From IMG/VR virus record IMGVR_UViG_3300032322_001069, positions 1 through 64,000 of that record: a stretch of 64,000 nt of DNA; one strand, written 5' to 3'. The notes under the pieces are model-generated. The model had not been told where the DNA came from, searched no databases, and saw nothing but the letters and a program-made list of their open reading frames with translations. The position numbers and the translations under genes were made by a program. Positions 50,284 to 62,100 of this stretch are shown one piece after another. Position 1 is the first letter of the stretch; every line of letters begins with the position of its first letter. Source of the DNA: a virus.

Positions 50284-50712
50284 ATGCCGTACAAAACAAA
50301 ATTTGTACCATCTAACAAAGATAAGTATGTCGGTAATTGTGAAAAAATACTATGCAAATCTTTATGGGAACGGAAACTTTGCAAGTATTTTGATAACACC
50401 GACAGCGTTATAAAATGGTGTTATGAGTGTATCAAAGTACCTTATATTTCGCCTGTAGATAAAAAGAAGCATCATTACTTTCCAGATTTTTTAGTCATGC
50501 TAAAAGATAAAAATAATAGTGTCAAGACTATGATGGTGGAAGTAAAACCGGAAAAACAAACCAAGCAGCCTACCAACCCCAAAAGAAAATCTTATAAAAA
50601 TGAAGTGGTTACTTTCGTAATAAATGAAGCAAAATGGACTGCGGCAAAATCTGTTTGCGAAAACAACGAATGGGAATTTAAACTCTTAACAGAAAAGAAC
50701 CTCTTCAAATGA
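50284..50712 (+). CDS. 4: Head completion protein gp4 (nuclease-like fold)
   Basis: 142 aa (T4: 150). The ATG at 50284 gives 'MPYKTKFVPSNKDKYVG', matching the family start. 'CKSLWERKLCKYFD', 'PVDKKKHHYFPDFLV' and 'MMVEVKPEKQTKQP' form a PD-(D/E)xK-type endonuclease core (Glu, PDF Asp, ExK). gp4 completes DNA-filled heads before tail joining. First gene of the plus-strand operon; no Shine-Dalgarno seen. ATGA overlap with the next gene. Confidence 0.93.
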   Translation: MPYKTKFVPSNKDKYVGNCEKILCKSLWERKLCKYFDNTDSVIKWCYECIKVPYISPVDKKKHHYFPDFLVMLKDKNNSVKTMMVEVKPEKQTKQPTNPKRKSYKNEVVTFVINEAKWTAAKSVCENNEWEFKLLTEKNLFK

Positions 50713-51257
50713 ATTCAATAGAAGATATCAAAAGAATTATTAATCAGGCTGGCGGTTTACAGAGAACAAATCGATTTAATGTAAATCTATATTCGCCTAC
50801 AGAATCAACAAATAGCATTCCTGCACAAAAAGTAGTTTTTGGTGGAAGAGAAATACAGGCAATTTCTGATAAACTTCCTGGTCCAGGATTAGGTAGATTA
50901 ATTCCAATAAACATCGGATATGGTGGTAGAGATCCATCTTTGCAAATAACCTTTCCAGTAGAACAAGACTGGAAAACATATAAGATGATTGAGCTTTGGA
51001 TGAATACTTTAGCAAACGATGGTAGCAATCCTGCATTTTTCTACGGATTTAGCTTTGCTCGTCCATATGCATTGTATGCTAAAAATGGTGGAGCAGAAGT
51101 ACAATGTTTAGATACAAACGGTTCGATTAAAGCTACATTTAGATTTAGAGAAGTGTATCCTATAAGAATAATCCCCATAGAAATGGATGCATCTATCTCC
51201 AATTCATTTTTAACTTATGATGTTATTTTTAACTTTAGATCTTATCATGTTTATTGA
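50709..51257 (+). CDS. 54: Tube-initiator-like protein (gp54/gp19 fold)
   Basis: 182 aa. 'GGLQRTNRFNVNLYSP' matches the tube-type N-terminus (compare GGTRKNRF in the gp19 copies), and 'KTYKMIELWMNTLA' and 'FNFRSYHVY' fit the fold. gp54 starts the tube on gp48; T4 gp54 is 320 aa, so this is a shorter form or another tube-like protein. The start overlaps the gp4 stop (ATGA). Confidence 0.75.
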   Translation: MNSIEDIKRIINQAGGLQRTNRFNVNLYSPTESTNSIPAQKVVFGGREIQAISDKLPGPGLGRLIPINIGYGGRDPSLQITFPVEQDWKTYKMIELWMNTLANDGSNPAFFYGFSFARPYALYAKNGGAEVQCLDTNGSIKATFRFREVYPIRIIPIEMDASISNSFLTYDVIFNFRSYHVY

Positions 51258-51266
51258 AAAATTATT

Positions 51267-51956
51267 ATGAAAAATTTAACTAGAAATTTACCAAAATATT
51301 CGTGTATTCGTCCAAGCACCGGAAAAGAAACAAAGTTTCGCCCCTTCCTAGTATCAGACGAAAAAACTCTACTGCTTATAAAGCAGGAGCAGAATCCTAG
51401 AATGATAATTCAAAATGTCGTTGAATTATTATCTTCTTGCTTTGATGATCTTGATGTAGATTCAATGACATTACAGGATGTTGAATTCTTGTTCTGTAAT
51501 TTAAGAAGTAAGTCTGTTGGAGAATTGGTTAAAACTAATTTTACCTGTCCAGTGACTTCTGAAAAAATTAAAACTGATTTGGATCTTTCACAGCTAAATG
51601 CATCAAAATCAAATACAACTTTTGAGCTAGCATTGGATACTAATTACAAAATAATATTCAAAGAGCCGAATCTAAGAAAAATATTTTCAGTGGAAGGGAA
51701 CTTTGATATTGATCATCTAATTAAATCTTGTATTGATAAAGTATGTAAAGATGATGTTGTTTACGAGTTTTCTGATTTATCAAATCAAGAAATGTGTGAA
51801 ATTTTAAAGAACTTTACTACCAAAGAATATGAACAAGTAAAAACCTTTGTAGTTAATTTACCAAAAACATTTGCTGTTGTGTCATACACAACAAATGATG
51901 GTGTAGCAAGAAAAATGAGATTGGATGGGGTACTCAATTTTTTTACATTTGCATGA
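51267..51956 (+). CDS. 26: Baseplate hub assembly protein gp26
   Basis: 229 aa (T4: 208). 'CIRPSTGKETKFRPFLVSDEKTLLLIK' region (key: KFRPFLVSDEKTLL), 'LSSCFDDLDVDSMTLQDVEFLF' region and 'NLRSKSVGELVKTNFTCP' match gp26, a tail-assembly chaperone-like component. The last codons contain seven consecutive T (51938-51944), a possible slippery site to the -1 frame, where the next ORF lies open. The ordinary stop is TGA at 51954. Confidence 0.9.
   Translation: MKNLTRNLPKYSCIRPSTGKETKFRPFLVSDEKTLLLIKQEQNPRMIIQNVVELLSSCFDDLDVDSMTLQDVEFLFCNLRSKSVGELVKTNFTCPVTSEKIKTDLDLSQLNASKSNTTFELALDTNYKIIFKEPNLRKIFSVEGNFDIDHLIKSCIDKVCKDDVVYEFSDLSNQEMCEILKNFTTKEYEQVKTFVVNLPKTFAVVSYTTNDGVARKMRLDGVLNFFTFA
51938..51944 (+). 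promoter_or_regulatory. Candidate -1 ribosomal frameshift site
   Basis: Seven T residues read in frame 0 as (AA)T-TTT-TTT, the X-XXY-YYZ form. Slipping back one base gives TAC-ATT-TGC-ATG and continues through the 54-codon downstream frame without a stop. No strong downstream hairpin is visible. Confidence 0.4.
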
Positions 51957-52117
51957 ATCATATTGACTTGATGATTTTTTATAAAATTTCTTATTTCTTA
52001 GCATCAAGCAATGTACTAAGTGTGACGGAAGTAGAAAATTGTATTCCTTGGGAAAGAGAAATATATTTTAATCAACACAAGAGTAAACTAGAAGAGGAAA
52101 AATCTAAGAATGGCTGA
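51953..52117 (+). CDS. Small gp51-position protein, -1 frame to gp26
   Basis: 54 aa, starting MNHIDLMIFYKISYFLASS and containing 'VENCIPWEREIYFNQHK'. The IPWERE core recalls the second halves of tail-assembly chaperones (gpT, P2 E' types). T4 encodes gp51, a hub-assembly factor, at this place. Its ATG overlaps the gp26 TGA, and the frame is -1 relative to gp26, so it could be made by coupling, by frameshift as a ~283-residue gp26 fusion, or both. It overlaps the next gene by 8 bases. Confidence 0.72.
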   Translation: MNHIDLMIFYKISYFLASSNVLSVTEVENCIPWEREIYFNQHKSKLEEEKSKNG

Positions 52118-52817
52118 AACAGATATTTTATCCTTTCCGAGCGAAATACCAACACCAAATTCTGGTTCAAATTCTTTATTTGATTTCGGCAATACTCCCA
52201 ATCTTAATATGGGAAATTATTCTGGAATGATACCAGAAAATAATACTCTTGGTCAGTTTAATTTTGATACTGGTTCCAATATGTTCCCGGAAGAAATGCC
52301 AGTTTATGATCCGGGACTAGAACCTGACGGACAAATGCCATTCTCACCAACAGAACCTGGATTAGGAGAACAGATGTTCCCCGGTGATATGATGCCTGCG
52401 GACATTCCTCCTATGTTCGAACCCACAATGCCAGGATTGGGTGAGCAAATGTTTCCTGAAGATATTCCACAAGAAATGGAAAACGAAATTCCATTTGAAA
52501 TGCAGGATACATCAGAAATTCAACAGAATGAATATGAAAGAGATACACTACTGAATCTTCTTGAATCGGCTCAGGGCCTTGATCAAGATACAAGAAATGT
52601 AGTTCAACAGAAAATTCAATCTTTAAATACAGAAATACAGCAGCAAAAACAAAGAGTTGATATGTTAATGTCCAGAAAAGGTGCTGTTGTAAATCCTGGA
52701 TTTTCCTCTACTATGAATCCACAAAGAGTAGTAAATGCTTCTTCTGGCTATGAAGAAGATTTAAGAGAGTTTTTTATGGAAATAAAAAACCCTCCGGTGT
52801 GGAGGGTTTTAGGCTGA
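52110..52817 (+). CDS. Pro/Met-rich protein of unknown function
   Basis: 235 aa. The first 150 residues are low-complexity, acidic and Pro/Met/Gly-rich, with two similar blocks containing 'EPGLGEQMFPGD' and 'MPGLGEQMFPED'. Then a coiled coil of about 45 residues (LLNLLESAQGL ... QQQKQRVDMLM) and a short C-terminus. AGAGG precedes the ATG. It lies where hub or tape-measure genes are expected but is far too short to be a tape measure. The last nine codons pass through a terminator hairpin. Confidence 0.75.
   Translation: MAETDILSFPSEIPTPNSGSNSLFDFGNTPNLNMGNYSGMIPENNTLGQFNFDTGSNMFPEEMPVYDPGLEPDGQMPFSPTEPGLGEQMFPGDMMPADIPPMFEPTMPGLGEQMFPEDIPQEMENEIPFEMQDTSEIQQNEYERDTLLNLLESAQGLDQDTRNVVQQKIQSLNTEIQQQKQRVDMLMSRKGAVVNPGFSSTMNPQRVVNASSGYEEDLREFFMEIKNPPVWRVLG
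52786..52810. terminator. Bidirectional terminator at the gp32 convergence
   Basis: A 10-bp stem (52786-52795 with 52801-52810) with a 5-base loop. The minus strand continues with six T after GGAGGG, fitting gp32 message termination; the plus strand ends in TTTT. It lies inside the 3' end of the plus-strand gene and 16 bases after the gp32 stop. Confidence 0.85.
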
Positions 52818-56393: not shown

Positions 56394-57104
56394 TCAAATT
56401 GATAATTTTTTATCGGTCATTGTAATAATAAATTTACGAATCTTATCGATATATCCGCGATTTCTCAATTCCTTAAATACTAGATTGTCCTGAGTAAATT
56501 CACCACTCTTTGCTATGGAATGTTTTCTTAGTTTTTGGAATTTTTCCAACAATTTCTCTGCTGCTTTTGTATCAGTAGTATTCTCCAAAGCATGATCGAT
56601 TTGATAAATCGCATCATCTATTTTTTTCTTTAAAAGATCATCGTGCTCAAAATCAAGTTCAAGATTTTCTGGCTTAACTACCCATTTGCCAGTCTTTAAA
56701 GAATAGACTCCTTGATTCTTAGGAATATTCACCTCTCCTAATTGAGCATATACTTCTACCTCAGCTCCATATACTGAGATATCGTGAGTCAAAGACCAAA
56801 TTAACTTTTTATCCTTGAAGTATTCTTCGTCTGAACAATTTGGTATCTTCGATTTGTCTAGAATGATATGGACATCTATATCAGAATCTTCGGTATAATT
56901 ATAATTTGCATTTCCGCCAGTAAAGACTACATCCTTTACTGCCGAATTTGGTATTTCCGCAAATTTTAGCCATTCTTTGGCAATCTCAAGAAGTTTCTTA
57001 CGAACTTCTTCCTTCAAAAAAATATTTACCCAGAACTTTGGATTAAGATCCGAGTGATACTGAAGGGTCAGTGCCTCCAATAAAAATTTTCTAGGATTCA
57101 GCAT
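56394..57104 (-). CDS. Predicted nucleotidyltransferase
   Basis: 236 aa. 'VVFTGGNANYNYTEDSDIDVHIIL' (key: TGGNANYNYTEDSDIDVH) is the GGx...DxDxH active site of the nucleotidyltransferase superfamily, near residues 61-80. Helical C-terminal half with Lys/Glu. Similar proteins occur in T4-like phages, but substrate is unknown (RNA, antibiotic-like small molecule or protein). It stands alone on the minus strand between plus-strand virion genes, with the TCTACATAGTATATGC element at its start and no Shine-Dalgarno. Confidence 0.83.
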   Translation of the reverse strand: MLNPRKFLLEALTLQYHSDLNPKFWVNIFLKEEVRKKLLEIAKEWLKFAEIPNSAVKDVVFTGGNANYNYTEDSDIDVHIILDKSKIPNCSDEEYFKDKKLIWSLTHDISVYGAEVEVYAQLGEVNIPKNQGVYSLKTGKWVVKPENLELDFEHDDLLKKKIDDAIYQIDHALENTTDTKAAEKLLEKFQKLRKHSIAKSGEFTQDNLVFKELRNRGYIDKIRKFIITMTDKKLSI

Positions 57105-59764: not shown

Positions 59765-60085
59765 TTAGGTAGTAAGCTTCAGGCCAGAACCTAGAATCTT
59801 ATTTGCTCCCGCTGGGGCAGTAACAAGACCGCTTACTGCTGAAGTGTACTGGGTTTCCATTTCACTCATTGGACGGATCATAAACATAACATGTTCTTCA
59901 CTGATTGTAAAGCCATCCTCTGCGCGGGTATATGGCATATATGGAGCAAATCCAATTTGCCCCTGTCCCATCGGGATCAGGATATATGCCTTACTGATTG
60001 CATAATATCCTTCCTCTTCATGGAAATCCACCCTGCCGATAAGTTCTTCACCACTAGTTAAACGCAAGATTTGTACATTGCTCAT
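59765..60085 (-). CDS. Sm-like (Lsm fold) phage protein, short form
   Basis: 106 aa. 'VQILRLTSGEELIGRVD' and 'ISEEHVMFMIRPMSEMET' parallel 'CRLLKLRSGEEVLCLL' and 'IPKDHIATILKPSDSTV' in the protein at 21832-22548, so the two are paralogues of one Sm-like family. The ATG at 60085 is chosen because GGAG sits seven bases before it; the ATG at 60091 would be too close. A sigma70-like promoter lies at 60108-60135. RNA binding is inferred from fold. Confidence 0.75.
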   Translation of the reverse strand: MSNVQILRLTSGEELIGRVDFHEEEGYYAISKAYILIPMGQGQIGFAPYMPYTRAEDGFTISEEHVMFMIRPMSEMETQYTSAVSGLVTAPAGANKILGSGLKLTT

Positions 60086-60581
60086 TTTCATTCTCCTTTA
60101 GCATTATAGTATACCACTCGGGTTCAGGATTGCAAGTCCATTTTGCAAACTTGCTTTTTTCTCCCACATAGTACTTACGATAAGCAAGTACGGGATCTCC
60201 ATGAACCTTGTATTTATCTGGCATAGCCTGAGCAAAATGAGTCAGACCGCGCTTGGGTAGTTCAGGAATTTGTACGCTCATGGAGTACAAAAGAGGAAAA
60301 GACTTGTGGCACTTGTTATAACGCCTAGCGTAGATATGCGAAAGTGCAAGGGCATGATCCGTGAGCCAGATGTAGTTATCCCTGCTATATGTGGCCCATA
60401 GGGTACAAGGATGATTCACGAAACACTTCTTGTACAAAGTTTCCTTATTGATAAAGCTTTCGCTAACATGATGAACCGTAGAAAGCATTTGTGCGCTTTC
60501 AAGGATCATCTTAACGACATGCTTATCGCACATGTAACTAGCGGCCATGAGTGGGTCTGAATGAAGTGCAAAAATATTCAT
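60054..60581 (-). CDS. Conserved phage protein of unknown function
   Basis: 175 aa. 'AASYMCDKHVVKMILESAQMLSTVHH' region (key: CDKHVVKMILESAQML) is a signature seen in a family of uncharacterised T4-like phage proteins. 'HPCTLWATYSRDNYIWL' and 'WTCNPEPEWY' follow. His, Cys and Trp content suggests an enzyme, but no known catalytic motif is recognised. Three bases... in transcription order after the GMP reductase gene; overlaps the Sm-like gene by about 32 bases. Confidence 0.72.
   Translation of the reverse strand: MNIFALHSDPLMAASYMCDKHVVKMILESAQMLSTVHHVSESFINKETLYKKCFVNHPCTLWATYSRDNYIWLTDHALALSHIYARRYNKCHKSFPLLYSMSVQIPELPKRGLTHFAQAMPDKYKVHGDPVLAYRKYYVGEKSKFAKWTCNPEPEWYTIMLKENENEQCTNLAFN
60108..60135 (-). 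promoter_or_regulatory. Sigma70-like promoter before the short Sm-like gene
   Basis: Minus strand TTGCAA (60130-60135), 16 bases, TATACT (60108-60113) with an extended TGG before it. It resembles the gp32 promoter (both read TGGTATACTA) and lies inside the preceding coding sequence. Confidence 0.55.
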
Positions 60582-60583
60582 AG

Positions 60584-61600
60584 TTAGTGTCCAAAGACAG
60601 CATTATACTGCTGATTGACCTGAATGAATCGGGCATTGTTGAAAAATTCATCAAGATTTTTTGCTCCAACATAGGTACAAGCAGAACGAATACCGCCCAT
60701 GACTTCCGTGACAGTATTCTCAACTGGTCCCTTTGCTTCAACAATTACTCGCTTGCCTTCAGCAGCACGATAGGAGTTTCGTTGATTATAATGAGTCTTC
60801 ATTGCATGTTCCGATGCCATTCCGTAGAAGGTTGGAACCATAGTATTTGTATTATAATCAAACTCCCATCCGCCGCATTCGTCGTGGCCTGCCAGCATAC
60901 CACCGATCATTACCATCTGTGCGCCAGCAGCGAATGCCTTGGCGACATCACCGGGATGTACGCACCCACCATCCGCGACTATTCCCAACCGATTTGGATT
61001 GCTCCGTGCTTCTCTTGCACAGTTCTGGACTGCCGAGAACTGTGGAAACCCTACTCCGGTCATCTTGCGTGTTGTGCAAGCACTTCCGGGTCCGATTCCA
61101 ACCTTGATAAAGTCCGCGCCTGCTTTGCATAGTAGATTTACTCCTTCTGGTGTTACTACATTCCCTGCAATGATATTTACTCTTTCGCCATACTCTTGGC
61201 GAATATTGTACACTAACTCACTAAAATTATCGATGTAACCATTCGCAACATCGATACAAACAAACTTGAACTTGTTCTCAGACTTCATGACTTGCCGGAA
61301 TGTTTGCTGGCTAGTCGTGTCAAGTCCGATAGTTGGAGCAGAGAAATATTGCGCGTGATATGATAGAGACAAAATTTCTTCTGCGGTATAATGCTTGTGG
61401 AGGCATGTGAGCCACTGATACTTGCTCAGGGCTTCTGCCATCTCCAGCGTACCAATCGTCGCCATGTTTGCAGCCACGATTGGAACACCAGTCCAAGAAA
61501 TACGACCAATCGTTCGCATCAGATTGACATCTGAGCGAGAGTTGACCGATGACTGACGAGGTACGATTAGAACATCCGAATAATCTAGTTGCGTTGCCAT
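60584..61600 (-). CDS. guaC: GMP reductase (GuaC-like)
   Basis: 338 aa from the ATG at 61600 (E. coli GuaC: 347). IMPDH/GMPR TIM barrel: 'DYSDVLIVPRQSSVNSRSDV' region, 'GVPIVAANMATIGT', and the catalytic loop 'GIGPGSACTTRKMTGVG' with Cys175 and Thr177. The RKMTGVG ending marks GMP reductase rather than IMP dehydrogenase (which has CTTR.V.G). 'FIKVGIG' and 'ADGGCVHPGDVAKA' are phosphate-binding parts. No CBS domain. It converts GMP to IMP with NADPH, likely adjusting purine pools during infection. It overlaps the upstream Cys-rich gene by 16 bases. Confidence 0.93.
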   Translation of the reverse strand: MATQLDYSDVLIVPRQSSVNSRSDVNLMRTIGRISWTGVPIVAANMATIGTLEMAEALSKYQWLTCLHKHYTAEEILSLSYHAQYFSAPTIGLDTTSQQTFRQVMKSENKFKFVCIDVANGYIDNFSELVYNIRQEYGERVNIIAGNVVTPEGVNLLCKAGADFIKVGIGPGSACTTRKMTGVGFPQFSAVQNCAREARSNPNRLGIVADGGCVHPGDVAKAFAAGAQMVMIGGMLAGHDECGGWEFDYNTNTMVPTFYGMASEHAMKTHYNQRNSYRAAEGKRVIVEAKGPVENTVTEVMGGIRSACTYVGAKNLDEFFNNARFIQVNQQYNAVFGH

Positions 61601-62100
61601 AGTTGCTTGGCATTGTACCATAGAGTCTGGCAAATGCCAATACATGTTTCAGGAATATTTTTGATCGAAAACTTTGTTTTTACAGGATACCATTTATTCA
61701 TCGGGCAAATAGATCCAGCAATAGTTAATTTAATGCTTAGGGCAGCTCTTGGGTTTGTACCACAGCCACACAAATTACAAAATCCAATTGAATCTGTTAA
61801 AGTTTGAATTCTTGCTGGGCATGAAAGACAAGATTGTTTTCTCTGCTCAAAGATTTGTTTAGTTACCTTTGCTTGTGTAATACTCGCAAATTCAAACTTA
61901 ATATATCTGTAAATTTTCTTAAAAATATTTACTGATTTTGGCTCACCGAGAAGTAAAGCCATTCTCTCCTCATATGCATTCTGCATTTCTATGCTTTTTG
62001 CATTTGAAATAGGAAAGTATTGATGCTGCTTCCCGTCTTTATCAGAAAACAATCTACTTCCGCTACCAATAACACCAATATTATTTGTTTGTTTGTTCAT
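61585..62100 (-). CDS. Cys-rich zinc-ribbon-like protein
   Basis: 171 aa. After a helical N-terminus, 'QRKQSCLSCPARIQ', 'GFCNLCGCGTNPRAALS' and 'GSICPMNKW' form a C..C / C..C-C / CP arrangement like the 186-aa protein at 39929-40489. A further Cys pair lies in 'ETCIGICQTLW'. Probably binds zinc or an Fe-S cluster. Its start shares one base with the large virion-like gene upstream. Function unknown. Confidence 0.75.
   Translation of the reverse strand: MNKQTNNIGVIGSGSRLFSDKDGKQHQYFPISNAKSIEMQNAYEERMALLLGEPKSVNIFKKIYRYIKFEFASITQAKVTKQIFEQRKQSCLSCPARIQTLTDSIGFCNLCGCGTNPRAALSIKLTIAGSICPMNKWYPVKTKFSIKNIPETCIGICQTLWYNAKQLWQRN

Follow-up and report, generated by a model that had tools for sequence, protein, structure and literature searches.

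The gp26 homologue of this phage and the small gp51-like open reading frame (ORF) that follows it very probably constitute a single tail assembly chaperone (TAC) gene, whose long form would be produced by -1 ribosomal frameshifting. What points to this reading is the codon phase and conservation of a run of T's close to the gp26 stop, a -1 frame that is open across that stop, coding constraint upstream of the gp51 start, and the natural in-frame fusion of the two parts in T4-type phages. The locus lies in a window of 64,000 nucleotides, the whole stretch of DNA analysed here, which is part of a virus record of 77,969 bases. The window phage is marine, and it is a T4-type myovirus, as its portal protein is about 53% identical to cyanophage portals and its other T4-type proteins include a major head protein, a tail sheath stabilizer and baseplate wedge proteins.

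Profile matches of both parts place them in the T4 gp26/gp51 family (Table 1). The gp26 ORF matches PF12322 (T4_baseplate; E 2.4e-44) and phrog_150 (baseplate hub; E 1.6e-45), and the ORF downstream matches phrog_634 (baseplate hub assembly catalyst, gp51; E 3.5e-12), with no meaningful match for the gp51 domain in Pfam or NCBIfam. The downstream ORF also matches phrog_150 weakly, in its C-terminal columns 240-273, a first sign that the two parts form one protein in some phages. The AlphaFold2 model of gp26 (pLDDT 92) finds its best matches among the gp26 proteins of T4-like phages; against solved structures there was nothing significant, the HK97 TAC (2ob9) standing at E 2.9. The C-terminal domain is modelled as a small set of helices, and this model may bear a weak likeness to the C-domains of several phage tail chaperones, significant in no case.

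Table 1. Features at and around the putative TAC locus (positions in the window).
Feature	Position	Strand	Basis
Tail tube-like protein, 5' of gp26	50709..51257	+	phrog_45 tail tube, E 2.7e-19
gp26 homologue, putative TAC-N (short tail assembly chaperone), 229 aa	51267..51956	+	PF12322, phrog_150, AlphaFold2
Putative slippery heptamer T TTT TTT, phased to the gp26 codons	51938..51944	+	Sequence; T TTT TTY in 94/94 loci
-1 frame extension, putative C-terminal domain of TAC-NC (gp51 domain)	51944..52117	+	phrog_634
gp51-position ORF as annotation would have it, 54 codons, IPWERE	51953..52117	+	ATG overlaps gp26 TGA as ATGA
Predicted 13-bp stem (arms 51960-51973 and 52002-52014), candidate stimulator of frameshifting, 15-nt spacer	51960..52014	+	Folding
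235-aa protein in tape-measure position	52110..52817	+	Position and C-terminal motif

The gp26 gene ends in the codons AAT-TTT-TTT-ACA-TTT-GCA-TGA (TGA at 51954-51956). As the initial annotation had proposed, seven T's stand here in the T-TTT-TTT phase, which we checked against the gp26 codons; their distance from the stop, given as four codons, was essentially right, the exact figure being three sense codons (ACA TTT GCA) before the TGA. The -1 frame had been described as running through the IPWERE-containing ORF, and indeed no stop codon interrupts it from a point 5' of the heptamer until that ORF ends. After a slip the extension would read TAC ATT TGC ATG and onward, and the fusion, computed at about 284 residues, has the length first put forward. 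A run of seven T's cannot be called significant by itself, as the window holds 64 such words against 79 expected in shuffles, and the case for the site therefore rests on comparison.

For this comparison, 94 gp26 loci were assembled, comprising the window, six close relatives (L002-L007; amino-acid identity of 97% and 84%, the latter for L003-L007), seven phage records, and 80 IMG/VR loci found by profile search, in which gp26 is mostly 26-36% identical to that of the window. The set spans phages of Pelagibacter, Methylophilales, Sinorhizobium, Vibrio and Aeromonas, cyanophages, and IMG/VR contigs, and it falls into 77 clusters at 90% identity, 55 at 70% and 31 at 50%. In every one of the 94 loci an in-phase T TTT TTY is found 0-8 codons 5' of the gp26 stop, and in every one the -1 frame is open across that stop, five loci reaching a contig end before the -1 ORF closes (leaving 89 complete loci). 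Conservation of the T run in relatives, which had been suggested as a check on the site, is thus borne out, and the loci carry what is used to recognise frameshifting TACs, namely a conserved, in-phase slippery heptamer (X XXY YYZ) shortly before the short ORF ends.

Conservation of two phenylalanines in the protein does not explain this pattern. In all 94 loci the two Phe codons follow a codon with T in its third position, and the first of the two is TTT, whereas FF codon pairs elsewhere in the same loci take the form TTTTTTY in only 32 of 294 cases (11%), or in 20-29% when they follow S, D or N, and the remaining parts of these gp26 genes seldom have runs of six or more T's (38 in 21,273 codons). 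Since the loci share kinship, naive chance figures for this agreement would be overstated.

A T run can give rise to a fusion, or to the appearance of a broken gene, by routes other than the ribosome. Transcriptional slippage is possible on poly-T runs, and RNA polymerase slipping here would yield a mixed mRNA pool in which some transcripts encode the fusion. Around half of the loci, however, carry just six T's followed by another base, which is below the length usually needed for such slippage, and the phase of the run relative to the codons is always the one required for a tandem tRNA slip; even a locus with 58% GC (L060) retains exactly T TTT TTC. We therefore regard polymerase slippage as very unlikely. 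Sequencing errors are likewise common in T runs, and an assembly or homopolymer error could in principle have split one continuous gene, but the same frame break occurs in 94 of 94 loci, in isolate genomes of different groups and with differing stop codons, which refutes an artefact and leaves it a practically negligible probability.

A more substantial alternative to frameshifting is that gp51 is made as a separate protein, by translational coupling at the ATGA or by re-initiation, the former having been offered in the initial annotation as a second route. The ATGA is present in the window and in L002, where the overlap could permit some separate gp51, at least in the window, and P-SSM2-type phages have an ATG two bases 3' of the gp26 stop. 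This arrangement is not conserved, however. In the five relatives with 84% identity the ATGA has become CTAA (ATG to CTA), although the T run and the peptide FFYICxNHIDLM remain, so that coupling is not the conserved route. More broadly, 51 of the 89 complete loci, those of HTVC008M and Melnitz-1 included, lack ATG, GTG and TTG alike throughout the first nine -1 codons, and ATG is absent there in 41 of 53 clusters. In these start-less loci, differences across -1 codons 3-9 fall mainly at third positions (202, against 101 at first and 64 at second positions), and this excess is the pattern of a sequence translated in the -1 frame, even though the stretch offers no start. In addition, the 5-12 nt upstream of the window's ATG (TTTTTTTACATTTGC) hold no Shine-Dalgarno-like sequence, and coupling would leave both the T run and the coding constraint upstream of the ATG unexplained. 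A separately initiated gp51 is, in our estimation, improbable as the account of this locus.

Frameshifting is probably raised by a stem-loop downstream of the slippery site, and the RNA past the site is more structured than elsewhere in the gene. The 80 nt 3' of the site have a mean folding z of -1.53, as compared with -0.34 in gp26 control stretches, a difference whose p value calls for caution because the sequences are related. No consensus structure was found for all loci together (RNAalifold, 90 ungapped sequences; energy 0), and a single common RNA structure was rejected; stems differ by lineage, and subgroups were tested for this reason. In 14 loci a nine-pair stem begins 7 nt past the site, with 87% of cells paired and three pairs with two-sided changes, whereas 17-39% are paired when the stem is slid as a control. 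P-SSM2-type phages have an eleven-pair stem from 5 nt past the site. These subgroups were picked after their folds had been seen, so that the pair counts lean towards structure, a bias that the slid controls reduce but do not fully remove. The window's own stem has a z of about -2.2 to -2.7, and all 13 of its pairs are kept in L002-L007; among the four distinct sequences there are three changes, all one-sided, and no two-sided compensatory change. Its longish spacer counts against a role as stimulator. Overall, the lineage-specific stem-loops are candidate frameshift stimulators. Shine-Dalgarno-like words also occur upstream of the site in 63 of 94 loci, a raw count without a control, which we do not claim as a stimulator.

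Phage T4 itself provides a natural counterpart of the fusion. T4 gp26 consists of PF12322 alone, and T4 gp51, which is annotated as a chaperone, carries the gp51 domain behind a PF12322 domain in a single reading frame; relatives covering at least 80% of T4 gp51 are found in 1334 phage records. The fusion of gp26 to gp51 envisaged at the outset thus has both its parts contiguous in one protein, and the long product exists as such. The corresponding codons in the two T4 genes are GAG TTC TTT and GTG TTT AAG, neither of them slippery, which means that the slippery site is absent where the products have their own separate genes. T4 has two genes without a slippery site, whereas the window phage retains the frameshift version. 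Aeromonas phage Aswh_1 has a gp51 domain that is unannotated and appears once the frame is followed (L013, 2202-2376), and together with the case of Vibrio phage PVA23 this indicates that the frameshift version occurs in part of the Straboviridae, too. In HTVC008M (L010, 2151-2370) and Melnitz-1 (L014, 2160-2364), the annotated gp51 start is internal and too far downstream, well inside the domain. The comparison therefore corrects a habit of annotation, as the gp51 part in the annotated relatives examined is given as a separate, truncated or missed gene.

The T4-like TACs belong to a literature of their own. Vladimirov, Gautam and Davidson are said to have identified the TAC genes of T4-like phages in 2022, in Virology 566, pages 9-15. 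The families described there for TAC-N and TAC-NC appear to be those of the window (PF12322/phrog_150 for gp26 and phrog_634 for gp51), with short and long forms alike. According to the account given with PRFect, some T4-like phages dispense with the frameshift and have one short gene and a second, long one that encodes the fusion (Vladimirov et al., 2022, cited in PMC10885494), and a later paper credits the same study with poly-T signals for -1 frameshifting in the TAC-N genes of T4-like phages (PMC12846349). As these accounts have it, T4-like TACs, their frameshift and the poly-T signal were already in the literature, and the window case belongs to a known kind. Relative to the accessible literature, the present analysis contributes the wide conservation, the absence of start codons, and the stems particular to each lineage.

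The comparison with the tail chaperones of lambda and P2, made when the site was first noticed, is apt, and the same parallel had been drawn earlier for T4-like phages. As proposed for the window, lambda gpG/gpGT involves a -1 frameshift that adds a C-terminal domain, at a site close to where the short chaperone gene ends and 5' of the tape measure gene. The lambda slippery heptamer is GGGAAAG. The lambda genes thus differ from those of the window in their heptamer, gp26 is larger, and no detectable sequence similarity was found. Xu, Hendrix and Duda reportedly grouped P2 E/E+E', HK97 and other phages with lambda gpG/gpGT in 2004. A further example is phage Adele, where a conserved -1 frame with a GTTTTT motif at the end of TAC-N has been described for the TAC locus of Vandenendeviridae/Andersonviridae (PMC12846349). 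Adele and the window share a T-rich slippery motif, but Adele belongs to other phage families and its motif is GTTTTT rather than T TTT TTY.

In the reading preferred here, most ribosomes would stop at the gp26 TGA and release TAC-N, and a minority, with tRNA-Phe in both the P and the A site on T TTT TTT, would slip one base back and read past the TGA in the -1 frame, giving a TAC-NC that bears the helical gp51 domain. If lambda gpG/gpGT is a guide, TAC-N would coat the tape measure protein, and the C-terminal domain of TAC-NC would recruit the tail tube protein during tail assembly. The comparisons above lead us to infer the slip and how often it occurs, the influence of the stem-loop, and a chaperone role in the window phage. 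The T4 "baseplate hub assembly catalyst" gp51 would thereby gain a molecular meaning, with gp51 as the long and gp26 as the short form of one tail chaperone, and the loci collected here offer a large comparative set for testing the slippery site and the candidate stimulatory stem-loops. It is tempting to go further and, on balance, we lean towards the view that T4-type phages outside the T4 subfamily have T TTT TTY frameshifting, assisted by lineage-specific stem-loops, as their ancestral and almost universal TAC route, that T4 genes 26 and 51 descend from it through duplication, with the slippery site lost, and that the window lineage adds an unusually short tape measure protein.

The genome setting is also that of frameshifting TACs, in that a tail tube-like gene, gp26/gp51 and an ORF in the tape-measure position follow one another, which puts the gene where lambda has G/GT, and in HTVC008M and phiM12 the tape measure gene lies 3' of the gp26/gp51 locus. 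In the window the ORF in this position overlaps the extension ORF by 8 nt. It has no significant family match and no homologues in phage records, and its putative identity as a tape measure protein comes from its position and from a C-terminal motif, P-x-WR-x-x-(L/M)-G. The protein ends in NPPVWRVLG, and the motif is common to the ORFs in the same position in L016 (316 aa), L017 (322 aa), L027 (420 aa) and L047 (502 aa). Its length is the same in L002-L007, while most relatives have roughly 420-600 or more residues; at 1.5 angstrom per residue, a tape measure of 235 aa would give a tail of about 35 nm. Farther along the window, three genes on the minus strand encode a protein with a nucleotidyltransferase domain (56394-57104; PF01909), a pyrimidine dimer DNA glycosylase-like protein (60054-60581; PF03013, E 2e-7), and an enzyme of the GMP reductase / IMP dehydrogenase family (60584-61645; PF00478, with NF003470 at E 8.5e-116, just under the cut-off).
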